Assembly: GCA_023248995.1 (NCBI GenBank)
Contig: JAHFDN010000002.1
Span: 62,001 to 126,000, forward strand
Origin: Candidatus Rokuibacteriota bacterium
Lineage (GTDB): Bacteria > Methylomirabilota > Methylomirabilia > Rokubacteriales > CSP1-6
DNA length: 64,000 nucleotides
Direction of reading: 5' to 3'
Shown here: in pieces, positions 3,393-6,009 of the stretch
How the letters are laid out: every line of letters begins with the position of its first letter
Numbering within the stretch: the stretch's first letter is position 1
Position numbers and translations under genes: made by a program
Notes under the pieces: generated by a model
Database searches by the model: none
Seen by the model: only the letters and a program-made list of their open reading frames with translations
What the model was told of the DNA's origin: nothing

Positions 3393-5036
3393 TCAGGCGG
3401 TGCCGCCGAGCATGCTCTTGTACAGCTCGAGCCCGATCGTCGGCAGGCCGGCCTTGGCCTCGAGGGGCAGGCCGGTGTTGGCCCAGGCTCCCAGCCCCCC
3501 CTTGAGAATCTTCACGTCCTTGTATCCGAGCTTCCTCAACCTGTGCGCCACACGGGCGCTCGTCGCTTCTTCGGGTCAGGTGCAGTAGGCGATCACGGCC
3601 CGATTCGCTTCCACCTCGAGGTCGAATTTGCCCGCGTCGAGGTCGTCGGGAGACACGTAGAGGGCGCCCGGAATCTTGAGCGGGCTCGTCTCGAAGGCCG
3701 ATGGCTTTCTCACGTCGAGGATGAGCGGGTTCTTGCCTTCCTCGAGGAGTCGGACAACGGCCGAGGGAGCGACCCGGAAACGATTCCGCCACCAGCGGCG
3801 GCCCCACATGACCCCGTAGCTCCCGAGGCTCAGGAGCGTGACGCCGACGGTGGCCCACGCCCAGGGGAACGGACGGGGCGGCGGGTTTTTGATCTTGTCC
3901 TGAGCCTCGGCGAGCATGCGCTTGACGTCAATGAGGCTCGGGACCAGCGCGTTCGCCTCGTTGAAGCGACGCTCGGCTGCCCTGAAGCTGCCGTCGAACT
4001 CTTCCTCGAGTCCCGCCCACCAGGCCTTGTTGAACCGGCTTTCGGCGTTGAGCTTGACCTCCGTCCCCTGCACGAAATCGCGGACGGCGTTCGACGGGAT
4101 GACGAAGTTGAATCCCTGGACGATTCCGCCCTCCGGCCCCGGCGCCAGCGACACGAACGTCAACACGCCGACGACCTCGCCTCTGGCGGTCACCGCAGGC
4201 CCGCCGCTGTTTCCCCACGCGGCGGAAGCGTCCGTCTGGATCACCGGCTGGTTGGCCTTGTCCTGCTTGAACCCCGAGACGGCGCCGTTGGTGACGGAGG
4301 CCTCGACGGTGGCGGATTGGTTCAGGAGTTCGTGGCTCAGCACCACGCCGGGAAAGCCCAGGATGTGGATCGGGTCGCCGATCTTGGCGGCCTTGGAGTC
4401 CGCGAGCGGAAGGACGGGGAAGTCCTTGCCCGGGATCCTGAGCAGCGCCAGGTCCCTGCCGGACATCTTGCCCTCCGCATCGCCGTCGCCCACCGAGAGC
4501 GGCGGGCTGAACTTCTTGACGTCGGCCCGCAGACGCACCCCGCTGGAGAGGACCACGAAGATGGAAGGGTCGAGCTTTACCTTGGAGTGCGGCAGGACGG
4601 CGTCCAGGGCCTGTCGCTTGATCTGATCCTCCAGATCGGGCCGCTGGCCGGGGGCGATTCCCATCCGGCGAAGCGTGGCGGGAACGCAGGCCATCTCGAC
4701 GGCCCGCCGGGCGAAAGAGTTGACCATCCACCGCGGCGGGGTGTGAGCCGGCTGCACCACATGGCCGTTGGTGATGAGGAGGCCGCTGTCGTCGATGAAC
4801 CACCCCGTCCCCGTCTCCCTGAAGGGGGGAGGAGTCACGCGGGTCTCGCCCCCCCCGCAGTTCAGGCTGACCTCCGCGGCGACCTCGGCGATGACCAGCG
4901 CGACGGCCGGCTTGGCGCGGAGGATCGCCTCCTGCACCGAGAGGACCCGTTCGGCCCGAACGCCTTCAGCGCTACCCAGGAGGAGCGCCAGCCCGACGCC
5001 GACACCGAAGGCTGTCCCCCGCCGTCCGACACCCAT
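3393..5036 (-). CDS. Candidate selenoprotein: periplasmic trypsin-like protease-TM-rhodanese fusion (in-frame TGA at 3578-3576)
   Basis: A signal peptide (residues 1-28) leads into a trypsin/HtrA-like protease domain with a complete triad: His92 in 'TNGHVV', Asp195 in 'GRDLALLRI', Ser277 in 'GNSGGP'. No PDZ domain is evident. A linker (about 330-388), one membrane helix (about 390-411) and a basic 'GRRWWRNR' stop-transfer follow, so the C-terminal rhodanese domain (about 422-545) should be cytoplasmic. At codon 487 the frame reads Tyr-Cys-Thr-TGA-Pro-Glu-Glu, then continues for 60 residues ('ATSARVAHRLRKLGY', 'ILKGGLGAW') to a normal stop at 3393. Related rhodaneses, as I recall, have Cys at the TGA position (YC-x-CP-x-E-x-TSAR). 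With a SECIS-like hairpin downstream, I read the TGA as selenocysteine. Without readthrough the product would be 486 residues and lack half the rhodanese fold. A point mutation or sequencing error is the alternative. Confidence 0.8.
3545..3578 (-). promoter_or_regulatory. Candidate bacterial SECIS element after the in-frame TGA
   Basis: On the coding (minus) strand the TGA at 3578-3576 is followed, after 16 bases, by a perfect GCGCC/GGCGC stem (3559-3555 with 3549-3545) closing a 5-base loop CGTGT. The loop begins 22 bases after the TGA and has G at its second position. Both features agree with the general rules for bacterial SECIS hairpins. A lower helix CCTG/CAGG that includes the TGA can also form. 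Recognition by SelB is inferred, not shown. Confidence 0.65.
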
Positions 5037-5065
5037 GGGGGGGATTCTATACCCCTTGGCCTTCG

Positions 5066-5103
5066 GAAAAAAGAAGGCCCCAGGGATTGCGCCCTGGGGC
5101 CTT
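5066..5103 (-). terminator. Rho-independent terminator after the octapeptide-repeat gene
   Basis: A perfect 12-bp stem (5074-5085 with 5092-5103) with loop ATTGCG is followed on the minus strand by TTCTTTTTTCC. It lies just after the stop of the repeat-protein gene and only 30 bases before the protease-rhodanese start. It should end most repeat-gene transcripts, and any readthrough would feed the selenoprotein gene. Confidence 0.85.
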
Positions 5104-5127: not shown

Positions 5128-6009
5128 TTACTTCATCAGCTCCATGGCGGCCTTGGCTTTTGCGGTCGCCTTGGTCATGTCACCGGCCTGGCAAGCAGCC
5201 TCCGCTTCGTTCACGAGGGCCCGAGCCTTGGAGATCTGCGGGCCACCGACGGTCCGCGAAGCCTGGTCGTCCTTGCTACGCGAGGCTGAATCGATCTTTG
5301 TCCGCGAGGCTTGGTCGTCCTTGCTACGCGAAGCTGAATCAATCTTCGTCCGGGAGGCCTGGTCGTCCTTGCTACGCGAAGCTGAATCGATCTTCGTCCG
5401 CGAAGCCTGGTCATCCTTGCTGCGGGAGGCCTGGTCCTCTTTGGACCGCGAAGCCTGGTCATCCTTACTACGCGAGGCTGAATCAATCTTCGTCCGGGAG
5501 GCCTGGTCGTCCTTGCTGCGGGAGGCCTGGTCCTCTTTGGACCGCGAAGCCTGGTCATCCTTACTACGCGAGGCTGAATCGATCTTCGTCCGGGAGGCCT
5601 GGTCGTCCTTGGACCGCGAGGCCTGGTCGTCCTTGCTGCGAGACGCCTGGTCCGCTAGCGTGCGCAGTCCCCGCGAAGCCTGGTCGTCCTTGCTGCGGGA
5701 GGCCTGGTCCTCTTTGGACCGGGAAGCCTGGTCGTCCTTGCTGCGGGAGGCCGAATCGATCTTCGTCCGGGAGGCCTGGTCGTCCTTGGACCGCGAGGCC
5801 TGGTCGTCCTTGCTACGAGACGCCTGATCCACCTGGCTGCGGGCACCCGCAAGGGTACGCGGAGCCTGGATCTGATCACCCTGAGCGGTCTGCTTCTTCA
5901 GCATGTCCTTGGCCGCCTGCACGTCGGCCGGGCAACTCGCGGCTGCCTCGGCGACGATGGGGGCGACGAAGACAAGCAAGGTCGTCAGCGCTGTCAGCAA
6001 CTTTCTCAT
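5128..6009 (-). CDS. Secreted octapeptide-repeat protein of unknown function
   Basis: A 293-residue protein with a clear signal peptide (residues 1-23, ending AEAAA), a short N-terminal region with one Cys ('SCPADVQAAKDMLKKQT'), then 24 near-identical units of the form DQASRSKD (residues 61-252) and a C-terminal helical hairpin ('ARALVNEAEAACQAGD...') with a second Cys. Units vary as DQASRSKD, DQASRTKI, DSASRSKD and DQASRSKE; one unit is expanded to 11 residues (DQASRGLRTLA). The very hydrophilic repeats are likely disordered or rod-like in the periplasm or outside the cell. I do not recognise the family. It has its own terminator and a probable sigma-54 promoter. The complementary strand is also open through the repeats, but only this reading has the promoter, terminator and signal in register. 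Confidence 0.82.
   Translation of the reverse strand: MRKLLTALTTLLVFVAPIVAEAAASCPADVQAAKDMLKKQTAQGDQIQAPRTLAGARSQVDQASRSKDDQASRSKDDQASRTKIDSASRSKDDQASRSKEDQASRSKDDQASRGLRTLADQASRSKDDQASRSKDDQASRTKIDSASRSKDDQASRSKEDQASRSKDDQASRTKIDSASRSKDDQASRSKEDQASRSKDDQASRTKIDSASRSKDDQASRTKIDSASRSKDDQASRTKIDSASRSKDDQASRTVGGPQISKARALVNEAEAACQAGDMTKATAKAKAAMELMK
5254..5829 (-). repeat. Tandem 24-bp coding repeats (24 units)
   Basis: The repeat block encodes 24 octapeptides read on the minus strand. Units 3-6 (ending TKI, SKD, SKE, SKD) recur as a 96-bp higher-order block at units 10-13 and 14-17, and a simpler 48-bp TKI/SKD pair repeats at units 18-23. This pattern points to growth by unequal recombination or slippage. 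There are no spacers, so it is not a CRISPR array. Confidence 0.93.

Follow-up and report, generated by a model that had tools for sequence, protein, structure and literature searches.

The window, a stretch of 64,000 nucleotides from genome G000 (97% complete), belongs to an uncultured bacterium of soil and groundwater (Rokubacteria). Two genes follow one another on its minus strand: one for a secreted repeat protein and, directly downstream, one for a predicted membrane-anchored protease whose frame contains a TGA at codon 487. The features of the locus are as follows.

5128-6009, minus strand: gene for a secreted repeat protein with about 24 short "(D/E)DQASR"-type or "IDSASR" units between two Cys-containing end segments (from the sequence)
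5074-5103, minus strand: terminator hairpin in the intergenic stretch that separates the two genes (pattern scan; position and form conserved in syntenic loci)
5044-5051, minus strand: TATAGAAT, a -10-like element about 7 nt 5' of the protease ATG (by eye, from syntenic intergenic sequences)
3393-5036, minus strand: predicted selenoprotein gene, complete, 547 amino acids with Sec487, ending at the TGA of codon 548 (translation with TGA as U; full-length homologues)
4950-5036, minus strand: signal peptide, residues 1-29, cleaved probably after VRA (hydrophobic residues 8-26; low-confidence AlphaFold2 helix at 6-21; cleavage site by eye)
4017-4949, minus strand: residues 30-340, a trypsin-like protease domain of DegS/HtrA type, presumed to be periplasmic (Pfam, conservation, Foldseek)
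3798-3863, minus strand: membrane helix, residues 392-413; the positively charged RRWWRNR behind it would lie on the inner side (AlphaFold2 and conserved segment, orientation inferred)
3576-3578, minus strand: TGA codon 487, predicted to be read as selenocysteine (translation and homologue comparison)
3545-3559, minus strand: putative SECIS hairpin GCGCC-CGTGT-GGCGC, beginning 16 nt past the TGA (Sec/Ser contrast and synonymous invariance)
3450-3758, minus strand: presumed cytoplasmic rhodanese domain, residues 427-529 (Pfam, NF041203 at 74 bits, Foldseek)

Under translation table 11, the open reading frame of the protease gene stops at residue 486, right after AYCT. With TGA read as selenocysteine (Sec, U), the minus-strand frame (window:3393-5036:-) gives 547 residues, with U487 in the segment AYCTUPEEATSARVAHRLRKLGYKDVKILKGGLGAW. 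A sequence-only reading of this DNA had reported the in-frame TGA after AYCT without giving a strand; the codon is present, and the strand is minus. The frame was also said to go on past the TGA with rhodanese sequence to a clean stop; it does so, and is closed by a second TGA at codon 548. This second TGA bears on the possibility of a reassigned genetic code, in which TGA would stand for Trp, Cys, or some other amino acid. The frame is open across codon 487, as such a code would have it, but TGA terminates this same gene and many of its relatives, and the tRNA with anticodon TCA is tRNA-Sec. Because TGA is also the terminator of the gene, it is not reassigned, and we give this explanation next to no credence.

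Pfam placed a Trypsin_2 domain at residues 76 to 291 (2.4e-24) and a Rhodanese domain, which spans the TGA, at residues 427 to 520 (5.5e-12, above the cut-off). Foldseek matched the protease domain to DegQ/DegP/DegS and the rhodanese domain to Alr3790, GlpE (1gmx, TMt 0.77), and YgaP (5hbo), and AlphaFold2 gave mean pLDDT values of 83 overall and 84 within the rhodanese domain. The protease triad, H92/D195/S277, had been called intact; it is present, and an alignment of 87 rows retains H92 in 83 and both D195 and S277 in all 87. The protein thus has the His-Asp-Ser triad in a trypsin-like fold that marks DegS/HtrA proteases, but not the PDZ domain that follows the protease there: Pfam gave no PDZ match in the protein, and the "Do family" and DegS models scored far under their cut-offs. 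The C-terminal domain shows a rhodanese fold with the conserved loop cysteine of the rhodanese superfamily, and its loop reads Y484-C485-T486-U487-P488-E489-E490. The most hydrophobic 19-mer of the protein, residues 8 to 26, is the signal peptide. AlphaFold2 predicted a single helix between the domains, at residues 392 to 418, and the aromatic-flanked membrane segment PFPWAW...MWGRRWW is conserved among homologues. Hydrophobicity, AlphaFold2, and conservation agree with the earlier description of a signal peptide and one membrane helix between protease and rhodanese.

The protease would be expected in the periplasm and the rhodanese in the cytoplasm. Cyclic-nucleotide-binding (cNMP-binding) and PilZ domains bind cytoplasmic nucleotides, and since such domains follow the rhodanese in the scanned non-Sec relatives (see below), the rhodanese appears to lie on the cytoplasmic side. 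Within the periplasmic protease domain, Cys60 and Cys117 are each conserved in 84 rows of the 87-row alignment. They are likely to form a disulfide, and the pair may serve as such or as a sensor of redox state outside the membrane.

Next, we looked at the residue at position 487 among homologues. The search covered 119 genomes, in which the protease-rhodanese fusion occurs throughout the host's family and in one related family of the same class; all homologous fusion sequences come from uncultured metagenome-assembled genomes (MAGs), of Candidatus Rokubacteria/Rokuibacteriota and Candidatus Methylomirabilota/NC10. At 100 distinct homologous sites, codon 487 was TGA in 61; the others encoded Ser (32), Thr (3), Cys (2), Glu (1), and Ala (1). 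The 61 TGA sites comprise 50 with a protease and 11 sorted as DedA type, of which at least two (L083 and L163) resemble incomplete protease genes. Of the 87 aligned rows, 85 retain Cys485, the first position of the rhodanese loop. The sequence-only reading had expected Cys at this site in related rhodaneses, which holds for the two family members and for DedA-rhodanese proteins of the cultured Xanthomonas and a Comamonadaceae bacterium ("YCACP" and "YCDCP"), although the usual replacement here is Ser. Its general background, that Sec replaces catalytic Cys in redox and thiol enzymes, does not fit this loop, where the presumed catalytic Cys485 is retained and Sec stands two residues later.

The genome of the window holds a second Sec paralogue (L048, contig 17, 58% identical), and a TGA also occurs in a third rhodanese match of the C-x-U type (L168, contig 25). 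DedA/VTT-rhodanese fusions (L072-L077, L084, and L086) also carry TGA at the same C-x-U position, with the same hairpin in nearly all.

The hairpin downstream of the TGA distinguishes the Sec protease forms from most Ser forms. A perfect five-pair stem was found in 50/50 Sec protease forms versus 2/30 Ser forms (Fisher P value of approximately 1.5e-19, which overstates the contrast because the sequences share kinship). In the Sec protease forms, the hairpin GCGCC-N5-GGCGC has five loop versions, with G as the second loop base in 50/50. The five stem pairs are invariant across these forms, so that compensatory changes cannot be demonstrated; we therefore relied on synonymous invariance together with the contrast between Sec and Ser forms. 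Of 88 conserved degenerate positions in the 50 Sec forms, only two had zero codon entropy, A494 (GCC in 50/50) and A497 (GCG in 50/50), and they sit in the two arms of the hairpin; the median codon entropy over the 88 was 1.25 bits. Among the non-Sec forms, no conserved degenerate position showed zero synonymous variation. An outer stem was predicted in some sequences and is not conserved. The Rfam model SECIS_1 matched nothing in the genome, a result that is uninformative because the model also missed all control genomes.

The hairpin is kept in the Cys form L066 and the Glu form L021, as expected for recent Sec losses, and is lost in the Cys form L035. In the Glu form (L021/L089, Rokubacteria CSP1-6), codon 487 is GAA where close relatives have TGA. 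The change from ACC TGA CCC to ACC GAA CCC amounts to one base lost and one base gained and is possibly an assembly error.

The TGA at codon 487 is not there by chance, since the same codon is TGA and the same hairpin follows in 50 distinct homologues of the protease type, which stem from MAGs assembled independently. Selection past it is much like selection before it: dN/dS against the two nearest relatives was 0.142 and 0.133 for residues 488 to 529 and 0.106 and 0.140 for residues 30 to 486. These values, the shared codon, the frozen synonymous sites of the hairpin, and the full Sec machinery of the genome all argue against a nonsense mutation, in which the TGA would simply end translation and the sequence behind it, for the rhodanese, would be in decay. 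That the frame up to the TGA encodes a complete protease and membrane helix would suit such a mutation, but conservation already refutes it, and we consider it very improbable.

We also searched the genome for the machinery of Sec incorporation. One tRNA-Sec scored above the Rfam threshold (70.9 bits; anticodon TCA by ARAGORN), and selB (380 bits) and selA (593 bits), both above cut-off, lie beside it in one 5-kb stretch of contig 51. With selD, all four genes that had been named for a search (selA, selB, selC, and selD) are thus in the genome, and across the phylum selB was above cut-off in 84/95 genomes. The selD gene (L014, contig 22) likewise contains an in-frame TGA, within the motif AACAGUASK, and is itself a selenoprotein gene, so that the genome depends on Sec for a further gene as well.

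Together, the machinery, the homologues with TGA, and the hairpin bear out the earlier selenoprotein call. The gene has the in-frame UGA, the sense codon or Sec in homologues, and the conservation on both flanks that identify a bacterial selenoprotein, and by comparative evidence it has a SECIS just 3' of the UGA. The decoding of UGA 487 as Sec is strongly supported by these comparisons, and the gene almost certainly encodes a selenoprotein with the domain order given above. Standard gene callers would stop at residue 486 and so miss the rhodanese half of the protein, here and in other Rokubacteria genomes.

A 486-residue product could also have a use of its own. UGA 487 might be a selenium-dependent switch that yields the protease with a truncated rhodanese at low selenium and the full protein when selenium is present, the ratio of the two forms being regulatory. 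The shorter product would retain the signal peptide, protease, and membrane helix, and UGA read-through in bacteria is generally known to be incomplete. However, no observation requires such a dual output, and the same picture would be seen in any gene whose Sec codon comes late; we judge it improbable.

To follow the loss of Sec, we built a tree from 87 proteins after removing alignment column 487. Sec and non-Sec states changed at least seven times on this tree. Sec was lost repeatedly among the relatives, usually to Ser. All 50 Sec protease forms stop shortly past the rhodanese, whereas 32/33 protease forms with Ser or Thr have a C-terminal extension of over 130 residues. In the scanned Rokubacteria L023 and L041 this extension is a cyclic-nucleotide-binding domain, and in L069 (Methylomirabilota) it gave a weak PilZ match. 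These extensions in non-Sec relatives suggest that the proteins regulate something. The family is a natural experiment, with several losses of Sec, to Ser, Thr, Cys, or Glu, and with extra C-terminal domains in nearly all Ser/Thr forms, and the role of Sec can therefore be tested by comparing paralogues.

Taken as a whole, the locus is probably best explained by a Sec rhodanese tethered by one membrane helix to a periplasmic DegS/HtrA-like protease; persulfide or redox chemistry is proposed as the link between them. UGA 487 is very probably decoded as Sec by the cell's own SelA/SelB/SelC/SelD by means of the hairpin 16 nt downstream. Cys485 would either accept sulfane sulfur and become a persulfide or be oxidized to a sulfenic acid, and Sec487, the second member of the C-x-U pair, would then attack Cys485 to form a Cys-Se bond, which thioredoxin- or glutathione-type reductants could reopen. 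On the cytoplasmic side, the pair would thereby act as a fast switch that responds to persulfide or redox state and is coupled to the protease on the other side of the membrane. This chemistry at Cys485 and Sec487 is a tentative proposal. Signaling could run outward, with the redox or sulfur state controlling the protease, or inward, with the state of the protease altering sulfur transfer, and we are less confident of its direction than of the switch itself; the exchange of Sec for nucleotide-binding domains in relatives weakly favors outward control. Since Ser cannot form the proposed Cys-Se bond and most losses led to Ser, the chemistry would be dispensable or different in the Ser relatives.

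Those same substitutions lend themselves to another explanation, in which the rhodanese domain, instead of being a sulfurtransferase or redox switch, would bind or sense a ligand (an oxyanion such as arsenate or phosphate, for example), with Sec adjusting the affinity. Ser, Thr, Glu, and Ala all occur at the Sec position in relatives that retain C485, the cNMP-binding or PilZ ligand domains of the non-Sec forms point to regulation, and some rhodanese folds are known to serve in binding, among them the MKP7 domain (3tg3, a Foldseek match). On the other hand, C485, Y484, and E490 are almost invariant, and Sec is, as general knowledge has it, retained where a reactive selenolate is needed. We regard a pure binding role as rather unlikely.

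We compared the protein with known systems. Its C-x-U rhodanese belongs to a type already catalogued as a predicted selenoprotein subfamily, "form 3", NF041203 (rhodanese_LYCAU) (PMC13188914), which has the same C-x-U loop, with Sec two residues past the catalytic Cys. NF041203 is the best rhodanese family match, but its score (74 bits here and 72 bits for the paralogue) is below the NCBI cut-off of 115 bits, and the domain here is the C-terminal part of a 547-residue membrane protease. The earlier claim of novelty therefore stands only for the fusion of protease, membrane helix, and rhodanese, since the C-x-U rhodanese itself was catalogued before. This fusion is absent from the 2026 table of 119 prokaryotic selenoprotein families (PMC13188914), and our literature search found no paper linking Rokubacteria with such selenoproteins or a rhodanese with a membrane protease. 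If our interpretation is right, the protein adds to that catalogue (PMC13188914) an architecture with a protease outside the membrane and a Sec rhodanese inside. A passage in the same paper, citing Deng et al. 2026, gives 63 predicted selenoprotein genes for one Methylomirabilota MAG (PMC13188914), and the present protein could be among those that the passage leaves unnamed.

Other systems share single parts of the protein. DedA/VTT-rhodanese proteins ("DedA family protein/thiosulfate sulfurtransferase GlpE") are membrane proteins with the same type of rhodanese loop, with Sec in copies from this phylum (L072-L077) and Cys in cultured bacteria (L174 and L175), but their membrane part is a VTT domain without a protease. 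DegS/HtrA proteases share the fold of the protease domain and the catalytic triad, whereas the protein here is without PDZ, has its anchor C-terminal of the protease, and has a cytoplasmic domain. To our knowledge, Escherichia coli YgaP has neither a protease nor Sec. It resembles the present protein as a membrane-bound rhodanese with a cytoplasmic domain (PMC3551814) and is the fold match 5hbo. TsoB (NF045694, a rhodanese/DsbD fusion-like selenoprotein) also has a membrane-linked rhodanese and gave a weak match (15.6 of 805 bits), but its Sec motif is UxxxxU, with two Sec residues (PMC13188914), and its partner domain is another one. The "trypsin-like serine protease" selenoprotein of the GOS survey likewise has a trypsin-like domain in a predicted selenoprotein, but its Sec lies at a conserved Cys position inside the protease domain, of COG5640 (PMC2398784); here, Sec487 lies in the rhodanese domain, which sets the protein apart from that selenoprotein.

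Finally, we examined the neighborhood of the protease gene and found no conserved neighbor related to selenium or sulfur. The repeat protein has no Pfam match; its relatives have "GQDVQAPR"-type octapeptides, a conserved "CPxEV" start, and an "EAEAACKAGDM" end. By a directed search, we found a homologue upstream of 27/45 Sec protease forms, of the Glu form, and of 1/29 long-tailed Ser/Thr forms. Because copies also occur at other places in the genomes, this is an association of repeat protein and protease and not proof of joint function. It is nevertheless conceivable, though we rate the chance as low, that the two form an envelope system, with the repeat protein as substrate or partner of a protease set by a cytoplasmic Cys-x-Sec persulfide/redox switch, which relatives swapped for cNMP-binding or PilZ domains. 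If so, one input was exchanged for another in the relatives.

We also considered the two genes as one operon, against which the intervening terminator and -10-like element argue; with these elements between them, the genes are probably transcribed separately. The position of the -10-like element suggests that the protease transcript is leaderless. A terminator followed by a TATAGAAT-like element is conserved in the intergenic regions of L023, L053, L064, L088-L090, L113, and L143. Two more repeat-protein neighbors were found beside the apparently truncated protease genes L083 and L163.
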